From Actinotalea sp. (lineage in GTDB: Bacteria; Actinomycetota; Actinomycetes; Actinomycetales; Cellulomonadaceae): DNA of 15,806 nucleotides. The position numbers and the translations under genes were made by a program. Where the stretch lies: assembly GCA_014360395.1 (NCBI GenBank), contig JACIXM010000340.1, forward strand, positions 1 through 15,806. Reading direction: 5' to 3'. Below, piece after piece: positions 5,434 to 14,595 of this stretch (position 1 is its first letter; every line of letters starts with the position of its first letter). The notes below the pieces were generated by a model. That model had not been told where the DNA came from. It ran no database searches and saw nothing but the letters and a program-made list of their open reading frames with translations.

Positions 5434-6350
5434 TCAACGGAGCGCCGCACCGACCTCCTCGGCCGTCCGCCGGGCCGCCGCCAGGAGGCCCTGCGGGTCC
5501 GGCCCCGCCCCGAGGACCCCGCGCGAGACCGACGCGAGCACCGCGCGCCGCGCGTCCCCGAAGACGTCGGCGAGCTCCGCGGGCCCGGCGCCCTGCGCGC
5601 CGACGCCCGGCGCGAGCAGCGGCCCGCCGACGGCGGTGAGGTCGACGCCGAGCATCCGGGCGGCGCCGCCGATGGTGGCGCCGACGACGAGCCCGACCGG
5701 ACCCAGCGGCGCGCCGGTGCGGGCGATCTCCGCGGCGTTGACCCGGGCCGCCTCGGCCGCGACGATGCCCGCGACGGACGGCCCGGGGGCACCGTCGGCG
5801 CCGACGAGCCGGGCGTGCTGCACGCTCGCACCCTCGGGGTTGGAGGTCAGGGCGAGGACGAACACCCCCCTCCCGCCGTCGCGGGAGGCGTCGACGGCCG
5901 GACCCAGCGAGCCGAAGCCCAGGTAGGGGCTGACCGTCAGGGCGTCTCCGGCCAGGGGGGCGCCCGGACGCAGGTACGCGTCCGCGTAGCCGTCCATCGT
6001 CGACCCGATGTCCCCGCGCTTGGCGTCGACCACCAGCTGCGTGCCGGAGCCCCGGACCGCCGCCACGACCTCCTCCAGCACCGCCACACCGGCGGACCCG
6101 TGGCGCTCGAAGAACGCCGACTGCGGCTTGAGCGCGGCGACGGACCCGGCGAGCGCCTCGACGACCGTGAGCGCGAACCGGCGCAGCCCCGCGACGTCGT
6201 CGGGCAGGTCCCACCGCTCGAGCAGCCCCGGGTGCGGGTCGATGCCGACGCACAGCGGGCCGTGGCGGTCCATGGCGGCGGCGAGCCGGGTACCGAACGG
6301 CACGGGGGCGCCGTCGTCGGCGGGACCCCCGGCCCCCGCGGACGACAGGG

Positions 6351-6354
<4 letters not shown>
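5434..6354 (-). CDS. pyrF: Orotidine 5'-phosphate decarboxylase, type 2
   Basis: Decarboxylates OMP to UMP, the last step of de novo UMP synthesis. The 306-residue length and motifs place it in the longer type 2 family found in Actinobacteria rather than the roughly 230-residue E. coli type. Visible motifs are [12 protein letters not shown] near the N-terminus, [11 protein letters not shown], and the catalytic [12 protein letters not shown] with its Lys-Asp pair. [11 protein letters not shown] and [13 protein letters not shown] follow. The GTG start at 6354 overlaps the carB stop by four bases (GTGA), so translation is coupled. It is the last gene of the pyr operon; a GC-rich stem and the mihF promoter follow. 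The first 20 residues are Ala/Gly-rich, and a start slightly inside cannot be excluded. Confidence 0.95.
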
Positions 6355-9678
<3,324 letters not shown>

Positions 9679-9695
<17 letters not shown>

Positions 9696-10935
9696 CGGTG
9701 CTGGTCTCCTTCGTGGCGTCGGCGGCCGGCGCGGCCGGGGCGTCCCCGGTGGCGCGCTCGGGCACGGACCCGGTGGTCATGAGGTCGATGAAGCGGTCGA
9801 ACAGGTAGTCGGCGTCGTGCGGGCCTGCCGCTGCCTCGGGGTGGTACTGCACCGAGAACGCGGGGAGGTCCAGGCACTCCAGCCCTTCGACCACCTGGTC
9901 GTTGAGGGCGACGTGGGAGACGACGACGCGGCCGTACCGACCGCCGTCGTGCGGGGCGGTGGACTCCCCCTGCGTCGGGGCGTCGACCGCGAAGCCGTGG
10001 TTGTGCGCGGTGATCTCCACCTTGCCGGTGCGCCGGTCCAGGACCGGCTGGTTCACGCCGCGGTGGCCGTACTGGAGCTTGTACGTGCCGTACCCCAGCG
10101 CGCGGCCCAGCAGCTGGTTGCCGTAGCAGATCCCGAAGAAGGGGATCCGGCGGTCCAGCACGTCGCGCAGCAGCCCGACCTCGTGCACCGCGGCGGCCGG
10201 GTCGCCCGGGCCGTTGGAGAAGAAGACCCCGTCCGGCCGCAGGGCCAGCACGTCCTGCGTCGTCGCCGTGGCCGGCAGGACGTGGGTGCGGACGCCGCGC
10301 TCGGCGAGCCGCTGCGGCGTCATCGACTTGATGCCGAGGTCGATCGCGACCACGGTCGCGACGACGTCGGTGCCGCTGCCCGGTCCGCGCTTCGGCTCGA
10401 CCGTGTACGGCTCGGCGACCGTGACCTCGCGGGCCAGGTCGGAGCCGGCCATGAGCGGCGCGGCCGTCACCTCGTCCAGGAGGTCCTGCTCGACCTTGCG
10501 CCGCCCGGCGGCGTCGACGAGCGCGTCTCCGGAGAAGATCCCGGCGCGCATGACGCCGCGCTCGCGCAGGTGGCGCGTCAGGGCCCGGGTGTCGAGGTCG
10601 CTGATCCCGACGACACCCTCCTCCGCCAGCGCGTCGTCCAGGGTCCGGGTGGAGCGCCAGTTCGACGGTCGGATCGCCGGGTCGCGGACCACGAAGCCCG
10701 CGACCCAGATCCGCGTCGACTCCGGGTCCTCCTCGTTCACGCCCGTGTTGCCGATGTGCGGCGCCGTCATGACGACGATCTGGCGGTGGTACGAGGGGTC
10801 CGTCAGGGTCTCCTGGTACCCGGTCATCCCGGTGTTGAAGACGATCTCCCCGACCGTCGCGCCGCGGGCACCGAAGGCGCGCCCGGTGAAGGTGCGGCCG
10901 TCCTCCAGCACCAGCACCGCGGTCTGCTCGCTCAT
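9679..10935 (-). CDS. carA: Carbamoyl-phosphate synthase small (glutaminase) subunit
   Basis: Hydrolyses glutamine and passes ammonia to CarB. The 418-residue protein has the N-terminal CarA domain (about 5-150; [31 protein letters not shown]) and a class I glutamine amidotransferase domain (about 193-380). The catalytic cysteine is C270 in [12 protein letters not shown], with H365 and E367 in QYHPEA completing the triad. The SNGPGDP oxyanion segment is also present. The C-terminus (about 393-418) is an Ala/Thr/Asp-rich tail beyond the usual end and overlaps the carB start by 17 nt. ATG 10935 has a consensus ribosome site AAGGAGG (10949-10943), 7 nt away. That site lies inside the end of the upstream gene, whose stop overlaps this ATG (ATGA). 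Confidence 0.97.
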
Positions 10936-11567
10936 CGGGGCTCCTCCTTCGACGGGGTGGGCGTGGGCGCGTCGTCGTCCCCGGGCGTGGTGGACGGTGC
11001 TGCCGTGGCGGCCGGGTCCGCGGCGTCCGCCTCCGGGGCGGGGGCGTCGCGCTCGGCGAGGAGGCGCTCGACGGTCTCGACGAGCAGCTGCTGCTCGGCT
11101 CGGTGCCGCAGCCGCAGACCGGTGTCCAGGACGAGGTCACCGTCGTCGTCGCGCAACGTCCAGCGCAGCACGACCAGGCCCTCGCGGCCCGGGTACTTGC
11201 CGACCTGCCCGCTGGAGCGGTGCACGTCGACGAGGTCGGCGACGGGCAGGAAGAGGTCGCGCTCGCCGGTGCGCAGCACGGTCACGCCGGCGTCGAACAC
11301 CTGCACCTGAGCGGGCGACCGGCGGCCGAGCGTGTGGCCCGGCACGCGGTCGAGCCAGTCCTGCGCCGTCGTCGTCGAGACGTACGTGCCCTCGAGCTCG
11401 TCCGTGCGCGCGGGGCCCAGCAGGGCCGTCTCGGGCACCTGCGGGGGCGGCGGGACGGACGCGCTGGACGCCCGCTCCTTGGAGCGCATCGAGCGCAGCA
11501 TCGCGACGACCACGAGGGCGAACAGCAGTGCGAGGATCGCGACGGCGATCCAGGTCCGGTCGGTCAC
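10932..11567 (-). CDS. Conserved pyr-operon membrane-anchored protein with PH-like domain, function unknown
   Basis: A 211-residue protein of unknown function between pyrC and carA. Residues about 6-24 ([19 protein letters not shown]) form one transmembrane segment, followed by an Arg/Lys patch (RSMRSKER), so a cytoplasmic C-terminus is expected. A Pro-rich linker leads to a compact domain (about 50-170) with [19 protein letters not shown], then beta-rich stretches around [26 protein letters not shown] take this as the bacterial PH-like domain annotated in the equivalent genes; mycobacteria have one at the same place (Rv1382). The end (about 175-211) is an Ala/Pro/Thr/Asp-rich, probably disordered tail. 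The GTG at 11567 has GGAGG 7 nt upstream and overlaps the pyrC stop (GTGA); its stop overlaps the carA ATG. Position and coupling suggest a role linked to pyrimidine synthesis, which is inference. Confidence 0.88.
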
Positions 11568-12886
11568 CGCGCCACCTCCGCGTGCTCCACGGGGGCGCCG
11601 TCCAGGACGGTGGCCCGGCCGCGCAGGAACGTCGCGACGACGCGCCCGCTGAGCTCTCGGCCGCCGTACGGGGTGTTCGTGCTCGCGCTGAGGAGCTCCC
11701 GCGGCTCGACGCTCCAGCGCGCCGCCGGGTCTACGAGCGTGAGGTTGGCCGGCTCGCCGACGGCGATCGGCCGGCCCTGCGCCGCCGGTCCGCTGTCGAC
11801 CCGGCCGATCCGGGCGGGCGCGGTGGACAGGACGCGGGCGACGTCGGCCCACGTCATCCGGCCGGTCTGGACCATCGTGCTGATGACGATCGGCAGCGCC
11901 GTCTCCAGGCCGGTCATGCCGAACGCCGCGGCCGCCCACTCGCAGTCCTTGTCCTCGCGGGTGTGCGGCGCGTGGTCGGTCGCGACGACGTCGATCGTCC
12001 CGTCCTCCAGCGCGCCGCGCAGCGCCTCGACGTCCTCGGCCGTGCGCAGCGGGGGGTTGACCTTGTACAGCGGGTCGTAGGTCCGCGCCAGCTCGTCGGT
12101 GAGCAGCAGGTGGTGCGGCGTCACCTCCGCGGTCACCGCGATCCCGCGGGCCTTGGCCCAGCGGACGATCTCGACCGACCCGGCGGTCGACAGGTGGCAG
12201 ATGTGCAGCCGGGACCCGACGTGCTCGGCGAGCAGCACGTCGCGGGCGATGATCGCCTCCTCCGCGACCGCGGGCCAGCCGGCCAGGCCGACCTCGGCGG
12301 AGACGACGCCCTCGTGCATCTGGGCGCCGACCGTCAGGCGCGGCTCCTGCGCGTGCTGGGCGATGACGCCGTCGAACGCCTTGACGTACTCCAGCGCCCG
12401 GCGCATGAGGACCGGGTCGTGCACGCAGTGGCCGTCGTCGGAGAACACGCGCACGCGGGCGGCCGAGTGCGCCATGGCGCCGAGCTCGGCGAGCTGGGAG
12501 CCCGCGAGGCCCACGCTCACCGCGCCGACCGGGAAGACGTCGACCCACCCGGCGTCGCGGCCGAGGCGCCACACCTGCTCGACGACGCCCGCGGTGTCCG
12601 CGACCGGGGACGTGTTCGCCATCGCGTGGACGGCCGTGAAGCCGCCGGCGGCCGCCGCCCGGGTGCCGGAGGCGACCGTCTCGGCGTCCTCGCGGCCGGG
12701 CTCGCGCAGGTGTGTGTGCAGGTCCACGAGGCCGGGCAGGAGCACGAGCCCGGCGGCGTCGACCTCGACGGTGTCGCCCTCCGCGCGGGCGTCCGCGCCC
12801 ATCGCGGCCACGTGGCCGTCGGCGAGCAGGACGTCCGTGGCGTCGCCGCCGAGCGGGGCCGCCCCCCGCAGCAGGTACGTCGTCAT
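11564..12886 (-). CDS. pyrC: Dihydroorotase, class I
   Basis: Cyclises carbamoyl aspartate to dihydroorotate, the third step of UMP synthesis. The 440-residue protein is an amidohydrolase-fold enzyme of the long class I type. Metal-binding and active-site residues are visible: [10 protein letters not shown] (H57, H59), VFSDDG (D150/D151), QHAQEPR (H178), HICHLST (H231) and ATDHAPH (D304). The substrate-contact segment YKVNPPLR is present, as is [11 protein letters not shown] near the end. The His-Ala-Glu-Glu/Asp stretch of many relatives is HAQE here, with the catalytic histidine kept. The ATG at 12886 overlaps the pyrB stop (ATGA) and has GGGAGG 7 nt upstream; its own stop overlaps the next gene's GTG. 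In some bacteria class I dihydroorotase binds the PyrB trimer, which the coupling would suit. Confidence 0.97.
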
Positions 12887-13887
12887 GACCAGGCCTCCCT
12901 CTCCCCCGCCAGCAGCAGGTACAGCACCGCCATCCGGACCGCCACGCCGTTCGCCACCTGCTCCACGATGACCGCCCGCTCCGAGTCGGCCGCGTCCGCG
13001 GAGATCTCCAGCCCGCGGTTCATCGGTCCGGGGTGCATGACGATCGCGTGGTCGGGCAGCATCCGCAGCCGGCGGGCGTCGAGCCCGAACGTCCGCGTGT
13101 ACTCCAGCGGGCTCGGGAAGAAGCTCGTCGTGCGGGAGCCGCCGCCGTCGGCGCCGCCCATCCTCTCCCGCTGCACGCGCAGCATCATGACCGCGTCCGG
13201 CTGCTGGTCGGCGATGACGCCGTCGAGGTCGTAGGACACGGCGCACGGCCAGGCCTCGACGCCCACGGGCACGAGCGTCGGTGGCGCGACGAGCGTCACC
13301 CGCGCGCCGAGCGTGGTGAGCAGCTGCACGTTGGAGCGCGCGACGCGCGAGTGCAGCACGTCACCGACGATCGCGACGTGTCGCCCGGTCAGGTCCCGAC
13401 CGACGCCGTCGGCGTTGTCGGCGTCCCCGGCCAGGTGGCGGCGCAGCGTGAACGCGTCCAGCAGTGCCTGCGTGGGGTGCTGGTGGGTCCCGTCGCCGGC
13501 GTTGACGACGGCGGCGTCCACCCAACCGGCGTGGGCCAGCCGGTGCGGCGCGCCCGAGGCGTGGTGGCGGATGACGACCGCGTCCGCGCCCATCGCCTGC
13601 AGCGTCAGCGCCGTGTCCTTGAGGGACTCGCCCTTGGACACGCTCGACCCCTTGGCCGAGAAGTTGATGACGTCGGCGGACAGGCGCTTGGCCGCGGCCT
13701 CGAAGGAGATCCGTGTCCGCGTGGAGTCCTCGAAGAAGAGGTTGACGACCGTCCGCCCGCGCAGGGTGGGGAGCTTCTTGATCTCCCGGGACTGCGTGGC
13801 GGCCATCTGGGCAGCCGTGTCCAGGACCGTCACCGCGGTGGGGCGGTCCAGGTCCGCGGCGGACAGGAGGTGGCGCAGGCCGGTCAT
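12883..13887 (-). CDS. pyrB: Aspartate carbamoyltransferase catalytic subunit
   Basis: Joins carbamoyl phosphate to aspartate, the committed step of pyrimidine synthesis. The 334-residue protein shows the carbamoyl-phosphate site FFEDSTRTR (S55-R59, then ISFE), GSSVSKGES (80-88) with the catalytic-loop lysine, [14 protein letters not shown] (131-144), [12 protein letters not shown] and the aspartate-side HPGPMNRG (285-292). There is no pyrI regulatory-subunit gene nearby, so this is the unregulated trimeric type or one associated with PyrC. The ATG at 13887 overlaps the pyrR stop (ATGA) and has GGGAGG 6 nt upstream. The protein begins [14 protein letters not shown], typical for the family, although the open frame continues upstream without similarity. 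Confidence 0.97.
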
Positions 13888-14531
13888 CGGGTGCCTCCCG
13901 CGATGACGACGGAGTCGACGCCGTCGGTCTCCGCCAGGCGGACCCGGACGGTCTCCACGAGCGAGGTCGGCAGGTTCTTGCCCACGTAGTCCGCGCGGAT
14001 GGGCAGCTCGCGATGGCCTCGGTCGACGAGCACGGCCAGCTGGACGGCGCGCGGCCGGCCGAGGTCGTTCAGCGCGTCGAGAGCGGCGCGGATCGTCCGG
14101 CCGGAGAACAGCACGTCGTCGACGAGGACGACGACCTGCCCGTCCACCGAGCGGCCGGCCGGCAGCTCCGTGCGCCCGATGGTCCGCGTGGGGTGCCGGT
14201 GCAGGTCGTCGCGGTACATGGTCACGTCGAGCGACCCGGCGAGCTGCTCCGGGTCGACGCCCGGCTCGACGTCCGCGATGCGCTGGGCCAGACGCCGGGC
14301 CAGCGGCAGGCCACGCGTCGGGATGCCCAGCAGCAGGAGGTTCTCGGCGCCCTTGGTGCGCTCGAGGATCTCGTGCGCGATCCGGGTGAGGGACCGCTGG
14401 ACCTCGGCCGGTCCGAGCACCTCGGTGCCGGCGTCGTCGTCGGCGGGTGTCTCGGCAGCCGGTGGCGGGGCCACGGGCACGGGGGTGGGCTCCTCGGCGG
14501 GAGCCCCGGGCACGGCAGGGCCAGAGGACAT
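13884..14531 (-). CDS. pyrR: Bifunctional pyr operon RNA-binding regulator / uracil phosphoribosyltransferase PyrR
   Basis: PyrR binds pyr leader RNA when UMP is plentiful and has uracil phosphoribosyltransferase activity. The conserved core (about 37-215) begins [21 protein letters not shown] and includes LLLGIPTRG (67-74), MYRDDLHR, the PRPP-binding loop [13 protein letters not shown] (134-146) and [12 protein letters not shown] near the end. At 215 residues it is longer than the usual 180 or so. The extra is a Pro/Ala/Glu-rich N-terminal tail of about 35 residues, probably disordered. The ATG at 14531 is supported by a consensus AAGGAGG ribosome site (14545-14539) 7 nt upstream. A start further inside the tail is possible but would lack a ribosome site. 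The leader contains a PyrR-binding hairpin that buries this ribosome site, implying autogenous control. It overlaps pyrB by four bases. Confidence 0.96.
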
Positions 14532-14540
14532 CTGGCGACC

Positions 14541-14575
14541 TCCTTCCCCGCCTCACCGGACGGGCCTTAAAGGAT
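14541..14575 (-). promoter_or_regulatory. PyrR-binding RNA hairpin overlapping the pyrR ribosome site
   Basis: In RNA sense, 14562-14549 matches the PyrR consensus ARUCCNGNGAGGYU over GUCCGGUGAGGC. The outer A-U pair of the consensus is replaced by C-G, a pairing-preserving swap. The fold is a 6-bp upper stem (14564-14559 with 14552-14547, including the U-G wobble of the consensus) closed by the hexaloop CGGUGA. Below it is a purine-rich bulge UAAGG (14569-14565), then a 5-bp lower stem UCCUU (14574-14570) paired with AAGGA (14545-14541). AAGGA is part of the Shine-Dalgarno sequence, so the folded form should block initiation. This agrees with PyrR-dependent translational repression reported in Mycobacterium smegmatis. 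The folding was done by eye. Confidence 0.88.
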
Positions 14576-14589
14576 GTCGGACGCCGCCG

Positions 14590-14595
14590 ACACTA
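14590..14595 (-). promoter_or_regulatory. Candidate -10 box of the pyr operon promoter
   Basis: TAGTGT on the minus strand fits TAnnnT and includes the TAG stop codon of the upstream regulator gene. The transcription start would fall near 14584-14582, giving a leader of about 50 nt that contains the whole PyrR-binding hairpin. No good -35 box is visible; the region it would occupy is partly covered by a perfect inverted repeat (14601-14616). The operon may also be reached by read-through from the regulator gene. Confidence 0.4.

Follow-up and report, generated by a model that had tools for sequence, protein, structure and literature searches.

Comparative sequence evidence for a PyrR-binding loop over the pyrR ribosome site in the pyr operon leader of Actinotalea sp.

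The whole stretch of DNA that was analysed (the window) comprises 15,806 nucleotides from Actinotalea sp. and carries on its minus strand a pyr operon with the gene order pyrR-pyrB-pyrC-orf-carA-carB-pyrF and six gene overlaps. The genes are the following:

13884 to 14531, minus strand: pyrR, bifunctional regulator and uracil phosphoribosyltransferase (NCBIfam NF003547, 271.4 bits against a cut-off of 230)
12883 to 13887, minus strand: pyrB, its start overlapping the pyrR stop (ATGA, 13887-13884)
11564 to 12886, minus strand: pyrC, its start overlapping the pyrB stop (ATGA, 12886-12883)
10932 to 11567, minus strand: gene of a bacterial PH-like (bPH_11) protein, with a GTGA overlap with pyrC (11567-11564)
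9679 to 10935, minus strand: carA, with an ATGA overlap (10935-10932)
6351 to 9695, minus strand: carB, with a 17-nt overlap with carA
5434 to 6354, minus strand: pyrF, with a GTGA overlap with carB (6354-6351)

The bPH_11 gene is embedded in the operon, with pyrC on one side and carA on the other. Shine-Dalgarno sequences of their own are present for carA (GAAGGAGG) and carB (AAGGAG), and shorter Shine-Dalgarno-like stretches for pyrB, pyrC and the PH-like gene. The NCBIfam profile and the structural relatives indicate that pyrR is encoded and intact. The best solved relatives of its product are 11 chains named PyrR, with 1w30 in first place and 1a3c among them, which we take to be the PyrR proteins of M. 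tuberculosis and B. subtilis, respectively. The product contains the motif TRIAHE, as found in the chains 4p80 and 4p81, and a further 16-residue stretch, both of which are presumably RNA-contacting segments.

Upstream of pyrR lies a gene coding for an AraC/PAS-type regulator (Pfam), whose stop is located at 14593. Between this stop and the pyrR ATG (14531-14529), a 34-nt hairpin is found on the minus strand (14574-14541), separated from the start codon by 9 nt. The features of this leader, with the evidence for each in brackets, are:

14595 to 14590, minus strand: -10-like box TAGTGT, overlapping the TAG stop of the upstream AraC/PAS regulator (TAnnnT pattern in relatives)
14578 to 14576, minus strand: GAC, 5' half of a possible extension of the lower stem, with the partner GUC at 14539-14537 past an A.G mismatch (folding)
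14574 to 14569, minus strand: UCCUUU, 5' arm of the lower stem, an anti-Shine-Dalgarno (sequence, RF00515 alignment, covariation, folding)
14568 to 14565, minus strand: AAGG bulge (sequence)
14564 to 14547, minus strand: PyrR recognition hairpin, composed of CCCGUC (14564-14559), the hexaloop CGGUGA (14558-14553) and GGCGGG (14552-14547) (RF00515 alignment, covariation)
14546 to 14541, minus strand: GAAGGA, 3' arm of the lower stem (sequence, RF00515 alignment, covariation)
14545 to 14539, minus strand: pyrR Shine-Dalgarno AAGGAGG, five of its seven bases lying within the lower stem (sequence)
14536 to 14520, minus strand: second hairpin GCCAGA-UGUCC-UCUGGC, which holds the pyrR start codon and abuts the lower-stem extension (minimum free energy fold of the leader to +15, weak covariation)

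The core is closed by an upper stem of 6 bp, and the lower stem and the 5' bulge are both present according to the sequence, the RF00515 alignment and the folding. An earlier note on this DNA had claimed a core matching the PyrR RNA consensus, and every position indeed agrees with RUCCNGNGAGGY, the consensus core of the PyrR-binding loop. The same note had placed the Shine-Dalgarno inside the lower stem; the pairing UCCUUU/GAAGGA is borne out by the sequence, the RF00515 alignment and the covariation, and the distance from AAGGAG to the start codon is 8 nt. Of the extent that it had given to the element (14541 to 14575), we retain 14574-14541 and remove 14575, an A that stands opposite G14540 as a mismatch. 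The sequestered stretch may nevertheless be longer than had been proposed, because base pairs between GAC (14578-14576) and GUC (14539-14537) are possible beyond this mismatch.

The search with the Rfam model PyrR (RF00515), which had been suggested as a check, returned 14574-14541 with identical pairing (27.9 bits, E 0.019 in a search of 121 nt), a score below the gathering score of 54 bits. The match spans only the model positions 4-37 of 115, the positions 38-115 being unmatched. A genome-wide search with a limit of E 10 gives no other RF00515 match (this one has E 0.108), and RF00515 is absent from the Rfam scan of the whole window with a limit of E 1. With the looser limit of E 10, the model also matches nine of the 14 control genomes, E. 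coli included, and two of these matches exceed the cut-off. The hairpin does not stand out by its folding energy (z -1.10), 27 of 200 shuffles being equally good. The RF00515 score is thus weak when taken alone, and the case beyond chance rests on comparison. Two other Rfam matches in the window, to MIR5534 and guanidine-II, are below their cut-offs and were taken as chance.

Of the 61 genomes of the host family, 60 gave a pyrR match. G036, in which only the last 48 residues matched, was dropped from this set of 60, and a second partial match in G038 was left unused; this PyrR-like stretch (G038:C1:1719815-1720033) covers residues 20-94 with 56% identity and lies about 7 kb away from the complete pyrR gene. 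In all 59 host-family loci read, the Actinotalea sp. locus included, the hairpin stands before pyrR, and the conservation of stem and loop in close relatives, on which the earlier note had staked its reading, is therefore observed. The core is exact in 57 of these 59 loci, and the loop of the other two is one base shorter.

A covariance model (R1) was built from the 39 of the 59 host-family loci that have 5 nt separating UUUAA from the core. At E up to 0.05, R1 hits are present in 107 of 119 host-order genomes, 239 of 246 host-class genomes and 87 of 149 host-phylum genomes, which leaves 12 genomes of the order and 62 of the phylum without a match; these counts come from a model trained on the host family, with rough E-values and with drawn genome sets that overlap and include the genome under study. 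From the R1 matches in the order, class and phylum, 100 comparison loci were picked by hand, one to few per family, a choice that by its design biases the sample towards AAGG and the core. In 76 of 78 loci from other families of the host class and in 20 of 22 other loci of the host phylum the recognition core is exact, both sets having been found with the hairpin model.

Covariation was examined in an alignment, fitted to the model, of 99 of the 100 picked loci and the Actinotalea sp. locus (100 matches, one per source; 95 distinct sequences). Across the 95 distinct sequences, 96.3% of the cells are paired, and sliding the partner lowers the pairing to 56-71%. Two-sided changes are observed in 7 of the 12 pairs and in 49 cells (shuffled means of 3.4 and 8.7), values reached by none of 500 shuffles, and the check by covariation that the earlier note had proposed thus came out in its favour. 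The two pairs with the highest numbers of double changes, which occur as C-G, G-C, A-U and U-A, belong to the upper stem near the fixed loop. The weak pairs are the lowest pair (15 of 89 cells unpaired) and the outermost pair of the upper stem (23 of 93). Judged by sequence comparison, the observation is confirmed: the PyrR-binding loop at the Actinotalea sp. locus is real.

The 78 loci from other families of the host class comprise 72 situated before pyrR and six before carA or carB. In all 78, a PyrR, CarA or CarB reading frame opens with a start codon 3-14 nt past AAGGAG (scan range 3-19 nt), and the 3' arm of the lower stem is therefore the ribosome site in this sample. A pattern search of named genomes recovered at least 118 loci, and the 118 fetched all have the loop with AAGGAGGTC before pyrR, the pattern itself containing AAGGAGGTC. 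The matches listed (80 titles) include Mycobacterium, Rhodococcus, Gordonia, Nocardioides and Streptomyces. The architecture had been thought unusually compact in the earlier note. This claim is not upheld: in the 118 fetched loci, too, the 3' arm of the hairpin is the ribosome site, AAGG is found in the Rfam consensus, and the layout is not special, since the named loci of the five genera share it.

The mechanism itself is already known. PyrR-dependent translational repression is named for Mycobacterium smegmatis in the title of Fields and Switzer 2007 (J Bacteriol 189:6236; cited by PMC13328217 and PMC6455119). The pyr leader of M. smegmatis, like that of Actinotalea sp., has a PyrR-binding loop directly before pyrR. 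The named Mycobacterium loci, among whose listed matches M. smegmatis does not figure, also share AAGGAGG in the lower stem, whereas the distance between AAGGAG and the start is 12-14 nt in the Mycobacterium loci listed and 8 nt in Actinotalea sp. The leader of Actinotalea sp. therefore joins a published kind, and its layout is widespread in related bacteria. An ordinary-looking leader is thereby tied to a published mechanism, with a layout that is widespread and not local. The literature searched contained no title on PyrR loops across actinobacteria, which says little, most subscription papers being outside its scope.

At the Actinotalea sp. locus the -10-like box is located 21 nt upstream of the hairpin. 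Among relatives, the first base of a TAnnnT box falls 14-28 nt before the hairpin in 54 of the 59 host-family loci and in 69 of the 78 other host-class loci (raw counts, without shuffle control), most often at 20-23 nt, and boxes of this kind are scarce in the rest of the 70 nt examined. From the box at the Actinotalea sp. locus a transcript start is predicted near 14583, and the position of the box upstream of the hairpin suggests that the loop lies inside the mRNA and that the pyrR transcript includes it.

The loop overlaps the first ribosome-binding site of the pyr operon and is accompanied by no terminator-like site, and PyrR-dependent translational repression is very probably the best explanation of this leader. 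We infer the transcript start, the binding of PyrR, its dependence on UMP, the translational block and the polarity as follows. The leader of the pyr mRNA would begin a few nucleotides upstream of the PyrR-binding loop. At high UMP levels, PyrR with its bound UMP would clamp the loop, and the clamped lower stem UCCUUU/GAAGGA, possibly with GAC/GUC, would keep the pyrR Shine-Dalgarno closed. With the Shine-Dalgarno closed, ribosomes would be unable to start pyrR. The expression of the downstream genes should also fall, at least partly, because each start overlaps the preceding stop, and a polarity reaching all seven genes is plausible, although pyrB, pyrC, the PH-like gene, carA and carB have Shine-Dalgarno-like stretches of their own and some lineages carry a second PyrR loop before carA or carB. 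In M. smegmatis, Fields and Switzer are reported to have proposed in 2007 an occlusion of the first ribosome-binding site, with no terminator. The reading put forward in the earlier note, a shut-off of translation by the bound loop, is partly supported: comparison speaks for the loop, the Shine-Dalgarno in the lower stem, the lack of a terminator-like site, the upstream -10-like box and the six gene overlaps.

Three other explanations were weighed. The loop could act by transcription attenuation in the B. subtilis style, where the PyrR-stabilised loop would serve as an anti-antiterminator and a downstream terminator would halt transcription; the match is after all to the Rfam PyrR element, of which the loop part is present here, and a terminator-like hairpin with a T run follows the loop in 5 of the 11 loci of other classes that have a non-adjacent start. 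However, the gap of 9 nt between the hairpin and the pyrR start is short, and no terminator-like hairpin with a T run was detected within 110 nt downstream of the loop in any of the 59 host-family loci or of the 78 other host-class loci, so that we consider attenuation very unlikely in this leader.

It is also highly improbable that the hairpin is independent of PyrR, that is a static or RNase-related structure merely lowering the translation of pyrR. The hairpin is predicted to fold by itself, without PyrR, in most loci, and its lower stem is nearly invariant, but the exact core is kept in the host family, class and phylum at the frequencies given above (the last two sets having been found with the hairpin model), the changes in the stem are compensated and the controlled gene encodes PyrR itself.

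The folding of the leader bears on the main reading and on the third explanation. When folded from 14583, the assumed 5' end, to +15, the Actinotalea sp. leader has a minimum free energy fold composed of the loop with the extended lower stem (GAC/GUC), directly adjoined by the second hairpin at 14536-14520. When 30 nt of coding sequence are included, an alternative fold is 6.2 kcal/mol better than the best one that keeps the loop. The folding check proposed in the earlier note thus yields the loop with the leader to +15, and the different fold obtained to +30 counts against the main reading. Among the relatives (the two short-loop host-family loci and 3 of the 78 class loci were left out), the upper and lower stems are both part of the minimum free energy fold in 45 of 57 host-family loci to +15 and 39 of 57 to +30, and in 56 and 51 of 75 loci of other families, respectively; the mean cost of keeping the loop is 0.6 in the host family as in the other families.

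Very unlikely, too, is a mutually exclusive switch in which base pairing of the early pyrR codons with the loop's 3' arm would release the Shine-Dalgarno and create a riboswitch-like ON state. In its favour, the fold to +30 (-39.4 kcal/mol) pairs GGCGGGG with CCCUGCC, the mean duplex energy of the arm shows a slight dip around +3 to +12 (about -8.8 in the host family and -8.3 elsewhere, mostly -6.3 to -8.0 further in) and three rare codons, CCT, GCT and TCT, are over-represented among codons 2-9. Against it, codons 2-9 are no more complementary to the arm than composition-matched shuffles (mean z of 0.08 for 56 family loci and 0.18 for 78 others) and the loop remains in the minimum free energy fold of most relatives. 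This anti-sequester model was rejected, the complementarity being mostly a matter of composition.

Of the 22 loci sampled outside the host class, 11 have a start directly behind the hairpin and 11 do not, and all 11 of the latter keep AAGG, a presence that is partly due to construction, the loci having been found with a model that contains AAGG. AAGG also belongs to the general consensus of RF00515, and for this reason the pyrR Shine-Dalgarno looks co-opted from the loop. The RF00515 element and the pyr attenuators of B. subtilis have in common with the Actinotalea sp. leader a loop with a UCCUU/AAGGA lower stem, an A-rich bulge and the core; they differ from it in that Actinotalea sp. lacks a terminator-like site and uses AAGGA also as the pyrR Shine-Dalgarno. 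PMC4347634 presents the PyrR loop of B. subtilis as an anti-antiterminator, and the pyrR RNAs of Streptococcus pneumoniae are among the subjects of PMC10942264. Attenuation and translational wiring seem to coexist within the host phylum, the one loop being linked to a terminator in certain lineages and to a ribosome site elsewhere. The comparison makes an evolutionary question testable, namely how a single protein-binding RNA acquired control of transcription in one lineage and of translation in another, with its own stem serving as ribosome site. A wider scenario can be drawn, which we hold tentatively and consider rather unlikely as a whole. AAGG would have been kept for the loop itself and made into a Shine-Dalgarno by the host class, the same bases forming the repressor site and the ribosome site; the loop would have been rewired between terminator and ribosome control within the phylum; in the host family, the start-codon hairpin would stack on the lower stem (GUC followed by GCC with no gap) to form a two-hairpin lock on the Shine-Dalgarno and the start codon; and the unit would be portable and copied before carA or carB elsewhere.

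The two structures that adjoin the lower stem were also compared among relatives. All three pairs of the GAC/GUC extension are possible in 29 of 71 unique loci of other families (300 shuffles: mean 16.2, maximum 23; 3 of the 78 class loci and 1 of the 22 others were skipped by the pattern), which supports the extension there, and the extension is not significant in the host family (13 of 37; shuffles: mean 9.8, maximum 14). For the start-codon hairpin, the mean best stem of the host family is 4.90 against a null of 4.13 (52 unique regions; the starts of L035, L044, L049 and L052 were placed by eye), and 31 of the 52 regions score 5 or more, only six of them with an individual p of 0.05 or less. 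The other families exhibit no trend (4.11 against 4.13 over 78 regions, 22 of which score 5 or more), which rules out a class-wide feature. The start-codon hairpin is at most a feature of the host family, as far as these sequences indicate, and would distinguish it from the M. smegmatis system. Only two of its pairs change on both sides, a value reached by 8 of 500 shuffles, and a version slid by +3 scores better for covariation (0.090 against 0.066); these figures derive from 24 sequences (22 distinct) of the 27 with equal distance to the start, and the exclusion of L021, L024 and L041, whose arms are in another register or absent, favours the hairpin. By eye, a start-codon hairpin is also seen in L072 and L073 of one other family, and the arms seem to change together in L014, L039, L047, L050 and L072.

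Additional loops were detected within some operons. Among the 118 named loci fetched, four (Nocardioidaceae contigs) have two loops, the second of which opens a CarA frame in three cases (L192, L195 and L217) and possibly in L225, where the frame was not recognised. Inspection of the motif and by eye revealed a second PyrR loop, with a Shine-Dalgarno in its lower stem, before carA in L125, L127, L129 and L153, and a carB with its own PyrR loop in L092, L095 and L097, which come from three genomes of one family of the host order. In other classes of the phylum, the loop is situated upstream of a terminator-like hairpin in L139, L149, L150, L157 and L158, and by eye in L159. Finally, the beginning of pyrR (codons 2-9) in the host family is rich in the rare codons GCT, CCT and TCT: GCT represents 32 of 67 alanine codons in codons 2-9, against 21 of 331 in codons 15-60. 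The ordinary guess would be that these early codons reflect an avoidance of structure near the gene start.
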